Part shown: piece after piece, positions 13,855 to 20,867 of the stretch
Position numbering within the stretch: position 1 is the first letter of the stretch
How the letters are laid out: each line of letters begins with the position of its first letter
Source of the DNA: a virus
Strand: one strand, 5' to 3'
DNA length: 31,490 bases
IMG/VR virus record: IMGVR_UViG_3300012204_000018
Location: 1 to 31,490 of that record
The notes under the pieces: model-generated
What the model saw: only the letters and a program-made list of their open reading frames with translations
What the model was told of the DNA's origin: nothing
Database searches by the model: none
Program-made: the position numbers and the translations under genes

Positions 13855-14598
13855 ATGTCAACGTTTACACTGACGGACGCGAAGATTATGCTGGGTGGAT
13901 ACAACCTATCCGCCTATCACAATCAGATCTCCGTCGAGCACTCCGCAGAAATGCTCGATGACACAGTCTTCGGCACGTCAGGTACGCGATCGGCCCATCC
14001 TGGACTGAAGACTGTCAAAGTCAACGGCACCGTGTTGTGGGACACCACCTTGGACGGTGTGCTATACCTACGCATCGGTGCGACGCGCGAAGTGATGTCC
14101 TATGCCGCGTTCGGGAACACAGTCGGCGACTTCGGCTTCATGACGCGCGGCGTCAACGCAGAGTACAATCCCCAGTCTGGCGAAGTCGGTCAGCTGATGT
14201 CTTCGCAGTTCACGGCCGAGGCGGCCAATACGCCATTGGTTCGTGGACAGATTCTCATTCCGATCTTGCCGGCCCTGACCGCGAACGGCACTTCCACGAT
14301 CGTGCAGTTGGGGGCCGTCACCGCGTTGCAGCGCATCTACTCCGCCTTGCACGTGTTCGCCCCGATTGGGGGCACGGGCTCACCTGGCATCACCGTCACC
14401 ATCGAATCGGCCGCGCTCATTGGCTTTGGCTCGCCGACGACGCGACTCACGCACACGACCATCAATTCGGTCAATCAGACGGTTGGCGATTGGCAGGAAG
14501 CCGCCGGTCCGATCACGGACCAGTTCTGGCGTGCCAAGTGGGTGCTCACAGGTACCACGCCCAGCTTCATTGCGTATCTGACGTTGGGTATTCAGTAA
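13855..14598 (+). CDS. Tail tube protein A
   Basis: A 247-residue protein with AGGAG upstream (TAGGAGAGTGTC before the ATG). Position before the tail assembly chaperones and tape measure identifies it as a tail tube candidate. It carries, at residues 30-52, the motif SAEMLDDTV-x-GTSGTRS-x2-PGLK, found at exactly the same residues in the next gene. It is larger than the neighbour, with a C-terminal beta-rich half (ITVTIESAALIGFG and the final strand FIAYLTLGIQ). It may be the main tube subunit, with the extra half as an external domain. Confidence 0.72.
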   Translation: MSTFTLTDAKIMLGGYNLSAYHNQISVEHSAEMLDDTVFGTSGTRSAHPGLKTVKVNGTVLWDTTLDGVLYLRIGATREVMSYAAFGNTVGDFGFMTRGVNAEYNPQSGEVGQLMSSQFTAEAANTPLVRGQILIPILPALTANGTSTIVQLGAVTALQRIYSALHVFAPIGGTGSPGITVTIESAALIGFGSPTTRLTHTTINSVNQTVGDWQEAAGPITDQFWRAKWVLTGTTPSFIAYLTLGIQ

Positions 14599-14620: not shown

Positions 14621-15049
14621 ATGGCAACACTCGTCTATACTGACGCTTTCCTGTCCGTGGCCACCGTGGACCTGTCGGACCACGTCAAGTCACTGACACT
14701 CAACTACTCGGCGGAAATGCTCGACGATACTGTCATGGGCACGTCCGGTACTCGCTCCAGCAAACCGGGTTTGAAGAACTGGTCTCTTGAGGTTCAGTTC
14801 CTGCAGGACTTCGCCGCATCGTCGGTGGATGCGACCCTGTTCCCGCTGATTGGCGCCGCGTCATTCGCGGTCGCAACCCGTCAGTCGAAGACGGCGGCCA
14901 TCAGCGTCAGCAATCCGCAGTATTCCGGCAACGCCGTGCTGGAAAACTACACCCCGATTACGGGTGAAGTCGGTACGTTGGGTATGACCAACTGCACATT
15001 CCGGGCGGGTGGCGGCCCGGCGAACGTGTTGGCCCGCGCCACCACGTAG
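14621..15049 (+). CDS. Tail tube protein B (paralogue of A)
   Basis: A 142-residue protein, 22 bases after A, with AGGAG upstream. The block SAEMLDDTV-x-GTSGTRS-x2-PGLK occupies residues 30-52 as in A, and the flanking lengths match, while the DNA differs at most silent positions, so the duplication is old. The shorter C-terminus (NCTFRAGGGPANVLARATT, quoted in part) lacks A's second half. It may be a second tube or tube-cap subunit, giving a tail made of two related proteins. Confidence 0.72.
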   Translation: MATLVYTDAFLSVATVDLSDHVKSLTLNYSAEMLDDTVMGTSGTRSSKPGLKNWSLEVQFLQDFAASSVDATLFPLIGAASFAVATRQSKTAAISVSNPQYSGNAVLENYTPITGEVGTLGMTNCTFRAGGGPANVLARATT

Positions 15050-15195
15050 TTCTTCTTGGGGTGGAAGTGCCCCTTAGCGCCACGATCGACCGTCCGGGCG
15101 GGTATTGGGGTACCCCCCGGGCGGCCGCATGCGTCCCACGGCCCGGAGAGGGGGTTGTGGGGCGTTTGGCCAAACCCCAAAACAAGCACATCCAT
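15050..15195 (+). other. GC-rich structured gap before the tail chaperone
   Basis: These 146 bases contain no convincing gene: the chaperone frame is open through them from a GTG at 15061, but reads as noise. They contain the inverted repeat GGGG (15060-area) with CCCC, GGGTA/TACCC around 15111-15123, a duplicated CCGGGCGG, and a hairpin TGGGG..TTTGG (15158-15169) with CCAAACCCCA (15170-15179). No promoter hexamers were seen. No Shine-Dalgarno sequence is visible before ATG 15196. Confidence 0.45.
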
Positions 15196-15726
15196 ATGGC
15201 ACATGTTGTAGCAATGCCCGTACAGTCCGGGCCGGCGCGAGAAACATCTCCGTTCGTGTTGTTCGAAGAATTCGAAGCCATTCGGCCCGGTGTCGTGCGG
15301 AAGCGGAACTTCCGCTACGACCTGAACGCCCTCGCCGACTTCGAACAGGAAATCGGCATGGGGTTTGCCCAGCTGATGCAGATGAAGGCGACGTTCGCCA
15401 CGGCGCGCGCGATTGTCTGGGCGGGCCTGAAATGGGAAGACCGCGGTCTTTCCCTGGACTATGTCGGCGACTTGCTGGGCCGTTTGTTGAAGGTCGGCAA
15501 ATACGGCGTCAATGACTTCGTGATGATCGCCATGAAGGCGTGTGCGGAGCAGGGTGCCCTGGGTCCGGTGGCATCCAAGGCGGGGTCGGTGCCTGAGGGA
15601 CCGGCCGCTGATGCGGACCCAAACGAATTGGTGGGGAGCCTGGTCCAGCCCCCACAAACTGGAAGCGACGACGCCCCTGGACCCGATGGATCGAACTCGC
15701 TGAACCCATCGCCTACGGAGCCCTGA
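15196..15726 (+). CDS. Tail assembly chaperone, zero-frame product (gpG-like)
   Basis: A 176-residue product if no frameshift occurs. Tail assembly chaperones coat the tape measure protein while the tube polymerises. The core is SPFVLFEEFEAIRPGVVRK followed by NALADFEQEIGMGFAQLMQM and a helical region to about residue 120, then a low-complexity Pro/Asp/Gly tail. I chose ATG 15196; ATG 15214 is an alternative and neither has a good ribosome site. A -1 slippery site at codons 142-143 allows a longer product. Position immediately before the tape measure is diagnostic. Confidence 0.72.
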   Translation: MAHVVAMPVQSGPARETSPFVLFEEFEAIRPGVVRKRNFRYDLNALADFEQEIGMGFAQLMQMKATFATARAIVWAGLKWEDRGLSLDYVGDLLGRLLKVGKYGVNDFVMIAMKACAEQGALGPVASKAGSVPEGPAADADPNELVGSLVQPPQTGSDDAPGPDGSNSLNPSPTEP

Positions 15727-15947
15727 ATCTCAAGCCCTGGGAGTTCTGGCGTCTAACTCCCAGGGAGTATAACCACCTTGCGACGGGGTGGCGGTGGCGA
15801 CACAATCGTGAGCGTGATGATCGCGCGATTTGGGTTGCCACCCTCATCAACGGCGCAGGCCGAGTGAAAAGTCCGCTCACCCCGAGTCAGTTGCTGGGCC
15901 GTCCGGTCGGCGTTGACCCGGAGCCCGCTCCACGACGGAAGGCGTAA
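15196..15947 (+). CDS. Tail assembly chaperone, -1 frameshift fusion (gpGT-like)
   Basis: The slip at 15618-15624 joins residues 1-143 to a second frame (15624-15944) and gives a 250-residue protein. The second frame reads as good coding sequence: RWIELAEPIAYGALNLKPWE, then FWRLTPREYNHLATGW and LTPSQLLGRPVG, the pattern of the second half of gpG-gpGT-type chaperones. It is open upstream only to a stop at 15609, and contains no suitable start codon for the conserved part, so it can be made only as a fusion. Its stop lies 6 bases before the tape measure ATG. This gene is easily missed because it has no start of its own. Confidence 0.8.
15618..15655 (+). promoter_or_regulatory. -1 programmed frameshift signal
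   Basis: The heptamer C-CCA-AAC (15618-15624) lies in exactly the phase needed for a -1 slip from the chaperone frame: codons read GAC-CCA-AAC before and CCC-AAA after. Six bases later a stem begins: GTGGGG (15631-15636) pairs perfectly with CCCCAC (15650-15655) across a 13-base loop. Heptamer, spacer of 6 and hairpin match the known layout of stimulated -1 frameshift sites. Confidence 0.8.
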
Positions 15948-15953
15948 TATCCC

Positions 15954-18900
15954 ATGACGTTAGCGGAAATCCTGATTCGAGTCGGCGTCGATGCCAGTCG
16001 CGTCGCAACAGGATTGGGTGCGGCCGAAAAGTCGCTCGAGTCCTTCGGCACGCGCCTCTTCTTCCTGGGGTCGCGGATCACGGCGGGGGTTTCGGCCCCC
16101 GTCGCGGCCGCTGTCGCCGCTATCTCCCAAATTGGCCTGGAATTCGATCAGGCCATGACGGAAGCGCTCGCGATCATGGACCATGTCTCGCCGCAGATGC
16201 GGCAGCGCATGGAAGGTGTTGCCAAGGCCATTACCGAAACCACGAAATTTTCATCGACAGAGGGCGCCAAGGCCTTCTACGATCTCGCGTCCGCCGGCTT
16301 AAACGCCACGGAATCGATGCAGGCCTTACCTGTTGTGGCGCGGTTTGCCCAGGCGGGGTTGATTGACCTTGCCAAAGCGGGCGAATATCTCGCGGGTGCC
16401 CAAGCAGCCCTTGGTTCCAAGTCCGACGATACAAGTAAGAAAATCGCGGATATGGCAAAGATTTCGGACGTGCTGACCAAAGCGAATAATATCGCCCTGG
16501 GCACGGTCGAGGATTTCGCCAAAGCCCTGACGAACAAAGCCGGCCAACAGTTACGCATCTTTCACAAGGATGTGGAGGAAGGCGTGGCCGTCCTGGCCGC
16601 GTATGCGCAGCAGAATATTCGCGGCGCGGCCGCCGGCACACAACTCTACATGGCGATCCGCGACCTGGCCCGGTTCGCGACCAAGAACGCCGACGCCTTC
16701 AAGGCTCAGGGCATTGCCGTCTTTGATTCCGCCGGCAACATGCGGAATATGGCAGACATCATCGCCGACTTCGAGAACCGTCTGAAGGGCGCCTCGAACC
16801 AGCAAGCCGCGATGTTGTTCCAGATGCTGGGCATGACCGATCGGTCACGCGCCGCAACACAAGCCTTGATCGGGTACAGCGATTCGATCCGCGACTACGA
16901 AAAGCAATTGCGTAGTGCGGGCGGCACGACGAAGGAAGTTTCCGACAATCAGATGCAATCACTCAAGAACCAACTCTTGAGTGTCTACCATCAGTTCCAA
17001 AACGTTTTGATTGACATTTTCCAGGATTTCGAGCCGCTGTTGAGGACCAAGTTGGTACCGTCGCTTCAAGCGATGGTCGAAGTATTGAAAGATGGTGAGA
17101 AGTGGCTGAAGGGCCTTTCGACCGGTAGTAAGGAAGCCGTTTTAGGCATTACGGCACTACTGGTGATTGCCGGACCGTTGACCGCGTTCATTGGCTCCTG
17201 GTCGCTTCTCTTGAAAGTCGTGGCCATGCCCTTGGCCCCGTTGTTTGCGGCCGTGGGGGAAGGCGCACAAGCCGCTGGCACGGGCTTGGGAGCCGCCGCC
17301 GCTGGTGCCGCACCCGTGGCTACGTTGTGGTCTACCCTCGCGGATATTGCCACGGCCCTGATGACGCGGACCGCGCTGCTGTTTGGCGTGTTCGGGGCCG
17401 GCGTTATTGTCCTCGAGAAATTGGTGGGTGGATGGGGCAACCTTACCAAAGACTTCATTGCCACCGTCCCGCCCCTTGAAATTCTTCGTATTGCGTGGGA
17501 AGGTCTCGGTAAGACGTGGGAGACAATCAGAGAGCCACTAGGCAACGTCCTCAGCTACTTCTATGAATTGAGCCGCCTGGTGGGCGGTTCCACGTGGGAC
17601 GGAATGAAGACGTTGTGGGGCTACATGCGCGGCCTCGCAGACGTGCAGACCGAATTCCTTGGTCAGGGCCACGCTAGTCTCGTTTCATTCTTCGAAGAAT
17701 TGGCGAAGTGGATCGCTTCCCTGAATCCGGGTGTGCTCGCCCTTCTCGAACTGATGAAGCGGCTCAGTGACAAGGCCGGTGAAGCCGCGAAGCAGATGCG
17801 GGATGCCCGCAATCTCAACGCGTATGTTGAAGGGGCACATGGCACCGGGGATGTTGGGCTGTCCGATAATTTCCTTCAGCAAGCCGGTGTGCGCACCGGG
17901 TCCGGTCGGTTCTCGGTTACGGGTAGTGTCCCGGCGTTCGGTACGCCGCTAGGGTCGATGTTAAGCCGGCCGGTCACACCGAAGGATTTGCCGATCAATA
18001 CAGGACCACCTCCGGGTAACAATATCGCGACCAGCGTCACAAAGGACACATCTCTACTCAAGGCATATAAAACCGAAATTGCCGGCTTGGGCCAGATGTA
18101 CACCCAGGCGGTAAAGGATGGCGCCCCGCTTAAGGAGATTGTCGAAGCTTACGGAACGAAGTTCGAGGATGCCGGAAAGAAGGCGCGGGCGTGGGGCTTC
18201 GAACTGACCGGCGCGGTGAAGACCGGGTACGACGCCGTGATGAAGTACAATCTCGGCGAGTTCATTCGTAAACAAGACGCAGAACTCGTTACGTCGGGTA
18301 AGGCGTTCGTGGAAGTCTTCACGAAATACGGCACTGACATCACGACCAGCGTAAAGGGGTCCACCGACGAGCAGTTCAAGGCGGTCCAAGACCTTCAGAA
18401 TCGACTTATCGACATTGGGAAATCTGGGACAAACCAACAGATCGTTGAAATCAATCGTGCCGAGAAAGCGGAGATTGACGCGCTCAACGCCAAATCGAAC
18501 ATCGCAGAATCGACACGTAACCAAGAACTTGTTCTCATCCATGCGTATTACGATCATCAAGTTGACTTAGCGAAGCAAACGTACGACACGATTACGGAGC
18601 GGATGCACAAGGCGGGTGTCGATACCCAAGATGTGCAGAAAGAAACTGCCGATAAGTTGGAAACAACGTGGCGGCAGATGATGAAGTTCAATGCGGAAGC
18701 CGCGGACGGATTCAAGTTCGAAATCAACGACATCAAAAAAGCGTGGAACACCTGGTACGACCTCCTGAACCGGCCGAATCCCATGGCCAAGTTCTGGGGC
18801 TCTGTGGATACGACAATCAGTCCGTTTGTTCGCGAATTCAAGAATCTTTCTGACATTATCGGATCTGATACATCTGGTTTCGCATCGTTTGTCACAGGGT

Positions 18901-20867
18901 TTTCCGAAGTACTATCGGCCATGGAACTTGGCGCTAGAGCTGCCAAGACTGTATCGGAGTCGTTTGAAGGTATAAAGAAAGCTGTTGCGGAATCCAGAGA
19001 CGGCGTGTCTGGGTGGGGCGCGGACATGGCAAAGTCCTTGATTGGACTTGCCACCGGGATTGTGTCCGGGGTCGCTGCACTTTCATCTGCCACAGACCCG
19101 AAGAAATCTTTGACATCACGGATAGCTGGCGGGGCCATGGCTGGTGCCGAACTTGGTTCCAGTGTTGGCACTGGCCTCGCCATGGCCGGCATTATTGGCG
19201 GTTCCACGGCCAAGGGCCTTGCCGTGGCGGGTGTGTGGGGTGCGGCCGCTGGCGCGATTGTTGGTATCTTCATTGCCGTGTTTCGTGGCCGCCATACTCG
19301 TCAAGAAATGGCCAAGGTCGGCCACGAATGGGGCGCGACGATTAGTGAAGCTTTGGCCGATCAAATCCGTGAACAAGCGCACTCCATGTTCCAGGGAGAG
19401 GACATTGCCGCTGCCCTGTTCAACATGAAGGAGATCGTCAAGGCCGCTGGCGGGGTGAACGAAGCTAACCTAGACGAATTCACACACAAGTTGCGCGACA
19501 CATTCACGATGCTTGATCGTGGGTTGTTCACCGTCGCCCAAGCGAAGAAGGTCCTCACTGAAAACTTCCAAGACATCGCTGATGCAGTCTTGAACACGGG
19601 GGAAGTAGCGAGTAAAGAATTTACCGACATCATCGAGTACGCGGCCAAGTGGGGACTTCACATTAAAGCCATTACCGATTTCGTTCAAGGTCAGGCGGAA
19701 CGATTCGGTACGTCTATGGAAGCGATCGTGAAGGGCACGTCGTATTCCTTCACCGGGCTGTCAGACAAGATTGATACAGCGCGTCAGGCACTCGTTGACC
19801 TCAACAACGATCCCGAAGCGAAGCAAGAAGACATCAAGAAAGCCACGATCGAACTGCAAGACCTGTTGAATCAACAGGCACAGGCTGCCCTCAATTCGAC
19901 GGCGAAACTGGATGCGTTAACGGGCGTGGTATTGGCCGGCTTTAATCAGGCCATGAAGGACGGGGTTGGTATCATCACGGCCCTGAATTCCCAAGGCGGT
20001 GCCCTGGACGCCATTATCGCCGCCTACAAGGACCTGGGCGTTACGTCGGACAATGCGGCACTGGCCCAGTTGGTCAACCTTCGGAAATTGCAGGACACGT
20101 ATCCTGAGCTGGTCAACGGGGTGGGGTCGCTGGGTGACGCCATGTTGGCGTTGTCAAACATTGGCGGCTTGAACAAGGATACATTCGCCGCGATGCAGCA
20201 GACCGGTCTGGATATGTACAACGACTTGAGTGCAAAGGCCGCTCAACTCGGTGTGGATAACAGTTCAGCCGTGGCGATGATGGTGCCATTCCTGGAGGCC
20301 GTGATTTCAGGCAACAAGAAATACGGGTTTGCCATCGATGAAAACACGATGAAGCTCATAGAGCAGGCGCGCGAGATGGGTCTGTTGTCCGATGAGGAAT
20401 TGTCCACGAACGATATCCTCCGTGAAGGTTTGACGGCTATTATTGAAGCGTTGGGCGGCACGGTACCGGAGGCATTCAAGAAAGCTGCACAAGCCGCACA
20501 AAATGCCTTCGACGATGTAGCCAATGACGCGCAGACACAAATTGATCGGGCTGCCGATGCCTTTAGACAGTTCGACCCCGAGACCGTCAGAGTTCCATAC
20601 CAGTTCGTTCAGGTAGGCGATGACCCGCAGGTACCGCAAATGGATGTACCTGCGTTCGGGGCAGGTGGCGTAGTCTACGGCCCCACAATGGCTCAAGTGG
20701 GTGAGCGCGGTCCGGAGGTCATCACACCGCTCGACCAGTTCATGGGGATGATGCACCGCGACCGTGAAGAAGCCGTGGCCAACGTGTACATTGATGGCAA
20801 GCGCGCTGGCAAGGTCATTATGAGCAAGGCGAAAACCATTCTTCGTAACAATGGCATCCGGTCATGA
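15954..20867 (+). CDS. Tape measure protein
   Basis: At 1637 residues this is by far the longest gene, with the composition of a tape measure protein, which sets tail length and is ejected ahead of DNA. The N-terminus (ILIRVGVDASRVATGLGAAEKSLESFG) and the following region (AITETTKFSSTEGAKAFYDLASAGLN, cited in part) are of the TP901-type family. Hydrophobic blocks that could form membrane-inserting segments lie at about residues 390-495 and 1060-1115, separated by long charged helices. The C-terminus (GGVVYGPTMAQVGERGPEVI) is the typical end motif of tape measures. GGAAGG lies 11 bases before the ATG. The stop overlaps the next start. Confidence 0.93.
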   Translation: MTLAEILIRVGVDASRVATGLGAAEKSLESFGTRLFFLGSRITAGVSAPVAAAVAAISQIGLEFDQAMTEALAIMDHVSPQMRQRMEGVAKAITETTKFSSTEGAKAFYDLASAGLNATESMQALPVVARFAQAGLIDLAKAGEYLAGAQAALGSKSDDTSKKIADMAKISDVLTKANNIALGTVEDFAKALTNKAGQQLRIFHKDVEEGVAVLAAYAQQNIRGAAAGTQLYMAIRDLARFATKNADAFKAQGIAVFDSAGNMRNMADIIADFENRLKGASNQQAAMLFQMLGMTDRSRAATQALIGYSDSIRDYEKQLRSAGGTTKEVSDNQMQSLKNQLLSVYHQFQNVLIDIFQDFEPLLRTKLVPSLQAMVEVLKDGEKWLKGLSTGSKEAVLGITALLVIAGPLTAFIGSWSLLLKVVAMPLAPLFAAVGEGAQAAGTGLGAAAAGAAPVATLWSTLADIATALMTRTALLFGVFGAGVIVLEKLVGGWGNLTKDFIATVPPLEILRIAWEGLGKTWETIREPLGNVLSYFYELSRLVGGSTWDGMKTLWGYMRGLADVQTEFLGQGHASLVSFFEELAKWIASLNPGVLALLELMKRLSDKAGEAAKQMRDARNLNAYVEGAHGTGDVGLSDNFLQQAGVRTGSGRFSVTGSVPAFGTPLGSMLSRPVTPKDLPINTGPPPGNNIATSVTKDTSLLKAYKTEIAGLGQMYTQAVKDGAPLKEIVEAYGTKFEDAGKKARAWGFELTGAVKTGYDAVMKYNLGEFIRKQDAELVTSGKAFVEVFTKYGTDITTSVKGSTDEQFKAVQDLQNRLIDIGKSGTNQQIVEINRAEKAEIDALNAKSNIAESTRNQELVLIHAYYDHQVDLAKQTYDTITERMHKAGVDTQDVQKETADKLETTWRQMMKFNAEAADGFKFEINDIKKAWNTWYDLLNRPNPMAKFWGSVDTTISPFVREFKNLSDIIGSDTSGFASFVTGFSEVLSAMELGARAAKTVSESFEGIKKAVAESRDGVSGWGADMAKSLIGLATGIVSGVAALSSATDPKKSLTSRIAGGAMAGAELGSSVGTGLAMAGIIGGSTAKGLAVAGVWGAAAGAIVGIFIAVFRGRHTRQEMAKVGHEWGATISEALADQIREQAHSMFQGEDIAAALFNMKEIVKAAGGVNEANLDEFTHKLRDTFTMLDRGLFTVAQAKKVLTENFQDIADAVLNTGEVASKEFTDIIEYAAKWGLHIKAITDFVQGQAERFGTSMEAIVKGTSYSFTGLSDKIDTARQALVDLNNDPEAKQEDIKKATIELQDLLNQQAQAALNSTAKLDALTGVVLAGFNQAMKDGVGIITALNSQGGALDAIIAAYKDLGVTSDNAALAQLVNLRKLQDTYPELVNGVGSLGDAMLALSNIGGLNKDTFAAMQQTGLDMYNDLSAKAAQLGVDNSSAVAMMVPFLEAVISGNKKYGFAIDENTMKLIEQAREMGLLSDEELSTNDILREGLTAIIEALGGTVPEAFKKAAQAAQNAFDDVANDAQTQIDRAADAFRQFDPETVRVPYQFVQVGDDPQVPQMDVPAFGAGGVVYGPTMAQVGERGPEVITPLDQFMGMMHRDREEAVANVYIDGKRAGKVIMSKAKTILRNNGIRS

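Follow-up and report, generated by a model that had tools for sequence, protein, structure and literature searches.

A predicted −1 frameshift site in a tail assembly chaperone gene pair, conserved across a family of uncultivated phages

The window analyzed here, a stretch of 31,490 nucleotides covering positions 1 to 31,490 of the IMG/VR virus record IMGVR_UViG_3300012204_000018, carries an overlapping pair of reading frames at 15196-15947, which sits between the genes for a major tail protein and a tape measure protein. The features of this region are as follows:

14621-15049, plus strand: major tail protein, directly upstream of the pair (phrog_4574 major tail protein, E 2e-24)
15196-15726, plus strand: zero-frame product, first half of a tail assembly chaperone (G-like), ATG start, 176 aa
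15618-15624, plus strand: slippery heptamer C_CCA_AAC in −1 phase, read directly from the sequence
15624-15947, plus strand: −1 frame part of the predicted fusion (T-like half), 107 aa plus stop
15631-15655, plus strand: stem-loop with a 6-bp stem GUGGGG/CCCCAC and 2 inner pairs (RNAfold minimum free energy structure)
15954-20867, plus strand: tape measure protein, directly 3' of the pair (PhageMin_Tail, E 1e-25; several tape-measure PHROGs)

The two adjacent major tail protein genes at 13855-14598 and 14621-15049 resemble a duplication (36% identity over 136 alignment columns, E 4e-19). The gap of 146 bases that precedes the chaperone gene (15050-15195) is GC-rich and contains a GTCCGGGCGG motif; a promoter-like match was sought in this gap and none was found.

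The first chaperone frame could be extended upstream to an in-frame GTG at 15061, which would give an ORF of 221 aa. In the −1 frame, the final stop before the overlap is the TGA at 15609-15611, after which the frame is open from 15612 to the TAA at 15945-15947, and its earliest ATG, GTG or TTG is the GTG at 15864, which already lies within the conserved domain. The original prediction, which described a second half that has no start codon and overlaps the first in the −1 frame, is borne out by these positions. Because the second frame has no start codon, the program-made list of ORFs holds no second ORF here. Recomputed from the coordinates, a fusion of the two frames comes to 250 residues versus 176 for the zero-frame product alone, in full agreement with the lengths first proposed, and the heptamer lies nine bases past the last −1 stop, as had been claimed, when counted from the start of the TGA.

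The heptamer itself had also been placed correctly to the base and in exact phase: CCCAAAC at 15618-15624 is split as CCA AAC by the zero frame and as CCC AAA by the −1 frame. It is the sole in-phase XXXYYYZ heptamer of the overlap, and the only occurrence of CCCAAAC on the plus strand in 31,490 bases. With a background of 9 in-phase heptamers in 6,628 positions across 18 ORFs of the window, the chance of finding an in-phase XXXYYYZ in the 37-codon overlap is about 5%, and that of finding an XXXAAAN is about 1.7%. Judged on the window alone, the in-phase heptamer is thus suggestive of a frameshift site; it is the comparison with relatives that settles the question.

The protein sequences indicate that both frames belong to a tail chaperone. 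Specifically, the −1 product matches Pfam Phage_TAC_6 (PF09550) along a short segment of 25 residues with 24.5-24.7 bits, above the Pfam gathering cutoff of 23.4, so that a profile search against chaperone families, which had been proposed as a check, gave a positive answer. It also matches phrog_7377 (E 2e-10), and the first half matches phrog_2115, annotated as "tail protein" (E 2e-11). Among the relatives described below, the 36 C-halves in the alignment include 29 with a match to Phage_TAC_6 and three with a match to the lambda-type Phage_tail_T, in each case at E<=0.1, while 29 of 35 aligned N-halves match Phage_TAC_11 (PF11836) at the same threshold. Both halves further show weak profile similarity to the gene transfer agent gp10 / rcc01693-type proteins (Phage_TAC_11, Phage_TAC_6, TIGR02216). 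The window differs from these in staying below two of the cutoffs: its first half reaches 13.5-14.2 bits for Phage_TAC_11 (cutoff 27.8), and its second half 19.2 bits for TIGR02216, the GTA rcc01693 family (cutoff 56.1).

AlphaFold2 models, built from alignments from which two rows of the phage collection were left out, show a helical and confident C-half (mean pLDDT 88.5) and an N-half that is confident for approximately residues 41-120 and has a low-confidence tail beyond about residue 130, so that a slip at residue 143 would fall in a probably flexible tail. In BFVD, the two halves share one best structural match, the 247-residue viral protein A0A0K1LMC7, which we take to be the joined product of Bacillus phage Silence, since the lengths are equal and the identity of the accession is assumed. 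A search of solved structures with the C-half returned one match, chain HeliScrew4, without any stretch passing alone and without a phage homologue, the same search with the N-half gave no match, and no Foldseek match in the PDB reached an E below 2.

Relatives of the pair were found most effectively by alignment. As a single-protein query in a scan of viral contigs, the first half recovered no confirmed relative and the second half recovered one. With tblastn, both halves were matched in Geobacillus phage GBK2 (KJ159566) and Bacillus phage Silence (KT001912), and the N-half in a Syntrophomonadaceae phage, with N-half identities of 23-33% across the three; in all of them CCCAAAC or, in Silence, CCCAAAG ends the first frame, and the second half follows in the −1 frame. 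A five-row alignment of the C-half was too poorly conserved for scanning, whereas the N-half alignment worked and retrieved a further 80 loci from viruses and 3 from genomes. In total, 85 usable loci, the window and the three phages included, were grouped into 44 clusters at 70% identity. Two of the loci, L028 and L029, are one contig (IMGVR_UViG_3300037193_002415) with mirrored coordinates, probably a palindromic assembly artefact.

Across these relatives the slippery site is conserved. An in-phase XXXYYYZ heptamer lies within the overlap in 40 of the 44 clusters, where the two control phases yield 10 and 8. For AAA-type heptamers the corresponding counts are 37 clusters in phase and 6 and 6 in the control phases. 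This test is not circular, because the search patterns sit well upstream of the slip site. The commonest heptamers are AAAAAAC (12 clusters), CCCAAAC (10) and GGGAAAC (7), and whole sub-clusters are uniform, as with GGGAAAC in L033-L043, where it lies mostly 75 nt before the stop. A point against frameshifting is that a canonical in-phase heptamer is absent from four clusters (L021/L022, L024, L025 and L066/L067), all of which keep the −1 arrangement.

The same comparison bears on the possibility that an indel from sequencing or assembly split one gene into the two frames, or that they are a pseudogene in decay. The window comes from a metagenomic virus record, and a single-base error could in principle split a gene; the −1 arrangement nevertheless turns up in all 44 clusters, which are divergent and drawn from many contigs, with a slippery heptamer in the overlap of nearly all, and in isolated phages as well, so that independent records contradict this explanation, which we consider exceedingly improbable. 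An equally minute probability is assigned to a frame change by transcriptional rather than ribosomal slippage. Some relatives do have A_AAA_AAC or longer A runs, but the window has CCCAAAC, many relatives have this or GGGAAAC, and neither contains a homopolymer longer than three, while transcriptional realignment sites are often homopolymers of eight or longer (PMC3711429). The RNA structure found 3' of the site likewise fits ribosomal slippage.

Another explanation is that the second half has a gene of its own, whose translation would begin within the first gene or immediately past its end, at a non-standard start codon used through internal initiation or reinitiation. ATT, ATC and CTG codons do occur in the −1 frame ahead of the domain (at 15627, 15690, 15708 and 15723), and the GBK2 record gives the second half its own gene with a start further downstream. 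Set against this, the earliest standard start of the −1 frame in the window lies inside the conserved domain, and 31 of the 44 clusters, the window among them, lack any ATG, GTG or TTG in the stretch of the −1 frame that leads from its last stop to the domain, a count that is approximate in that the domain was located by a simple pattern. Relatives with an intact separate start for the second frame had been named in advance as evidence against frameshifting, and their being in the minority here counts against separate initiation, which would moreover leave the conserved in-phase heptamer and the adjoining RNA structure unexplained. As such, a separate gene appears very unlikely.

One further element of such frameshift sites, common though not universal, is a stimulatory RNA structure downstream of the slippery site. 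In the window, the arms of the stem are formed by 15631-15636 and 15650-15655, six nucleotides after the heptamer, so that the stem and spacer originally described are real; their energy, however, is no better than that of shuffled sequences, being ordinary for the base composition (z −0.63, with 47 of 200 shuffles folding equally well), and this is a second point against frameshifting when the window is considered alone. The family gives a clearer picture. In 40 representatives, 50-nt windows starting at +7 and +12 from the first base of the heptamer have mean z values of −1.53 and −1.43 (s.e.m. 0.30 and 0.24), and the means at all other offsets tested between −300 and +300 range from −0.4 to +0.1. 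The chaperone family has RNA structure at the expected place after the heptamer, and the window is a weak example of it (z −0.54). A Shine-Dalgarno-like element 5' of the heptamer was present in 32 of the 40, compared with 27.7 expected from shuffles, which is no clear enrichment.

The nearest known systems place the pair in context. The site of phage lambda itself is G_GGA_AAG. In lambda, too, the tape measure gene is preceded by a pair of ORFs that overlap, and a minority of ribosomes slip into the −1 frame as the first ORF nears its end; the outcome is mostly the short chaperone together with a minority of the fusion, whose extra domain recruits the tail tube protein (PMC5009743). The window differs from gpG/gpGT in its protein families, which are Phage_TAC_11/TAC_6-like, and in the second codon of its site, which is A_AAC. 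Silence is homologous in both halves, carries an annotated joined tape measure chaperone CDS and ends its ORF1 with CCCAAAG. It is distant from the window (identity of about 23% in the N-half and 36% in the C-half), has a stop codon immediately after the heptamer where the zero frame of the window continues for 33 codons, and possesses a much stronger hairpin (z −3.9 versus −0.5). GBK2, homologous in both halves as well, has CCCAAAC at the matching place, yet its record shows the halves as hypothetical proteins encoded separately and marks no frameshift; judging from its sequence, positions 2097-2776 likely encode a CCCAAAC frameshift fusion where two proteins are annotated.

The available data support a model in which 15196-15947 very probably yields a 176-residue chaperone and a predicted 250-residue −1 frameshift fusion. 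For the slippage itself, its rate and the role of the pair in assembly, we infer the following course. The majority of ribosomes would terminate at 15724-15726 and release the 176-residue chaperone, while a minority would slip one base back on CCCAAAC, with tRNA-Pro re-pairing from CCA to CCC and tRNA-Asn from AAC to AAA. The slipped ribosomes would then translate to 15944, joining the N-terminal chaperone domain to the helical Phage_TAC_6 domain through the junction peptide ...ADPNRIGGEPGPAPTNWK. By analogy with lambda gpG/gpGT, the tape measure protein would be coated by the part common to both products, and recruitment of the tail tube protein would fall to the extra domain, the ratio of the two products being set by the slip frequency. 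For comparison, C_CCA_AAG is shift-prone (PMC5009743), and a phage tail assembly chaperone cluster similar to HK97 shows frameshifting of 6-7% in E. coli (PMC3711429).

The site is thus very probably a further example of −1 programmed frameshifting of the lambda G/GT type, which is already well known. The core of the original prediction, a tail chaperone pair made by a −1 frameshift, holds up through the Phage_TAC_6 match, the tape measure neighbour and the heptamer and RNA structure across relatives. So does its description as a conserved, known feature of long-tailed phages, given that divergent relatives keep the layout and heptamer and that Silence is annotated as joined. Calling it the hidden element of this genome was an overstatement, as the feature is common in long-tailed phages.

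The choice of slippery codon in this family raises a question of its own. Counted within the family, XXXAAAC (X_XXA_AAC) is the site in 29 of the 44 clusters and the A_AAG type is rare. In the review literature, a second codon of the A_AAC type is viewed as mammalian-like and the A_AAG type as favoured in E. coli, and A_AAA_AAC is less shift-prone in E. coli than A_AAA_AAG (PMC5009743), which is a third point against frameshifting. That the TAC_11/TAC_6-like chaperone family shifts mainly on X_XXA_AAC instead of X_XXA_AAG is a tentative proposal, to which we give somewhat less than even credence.

The new results confirm the annotation of the gene pair as correct, where automated callers can split or miss such pairs, and add a family of uncultivated phages to those with a well-supported frameshift site. 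If the preference for X_XXA_AAC is true, it would imply that the hosts, or the RNA structures, promote efficient slippage of tRNA-Asn in bacteria. The family-wide A_AAC sites offer a ready set for studying tRNA-Asn slippage in bacteria.
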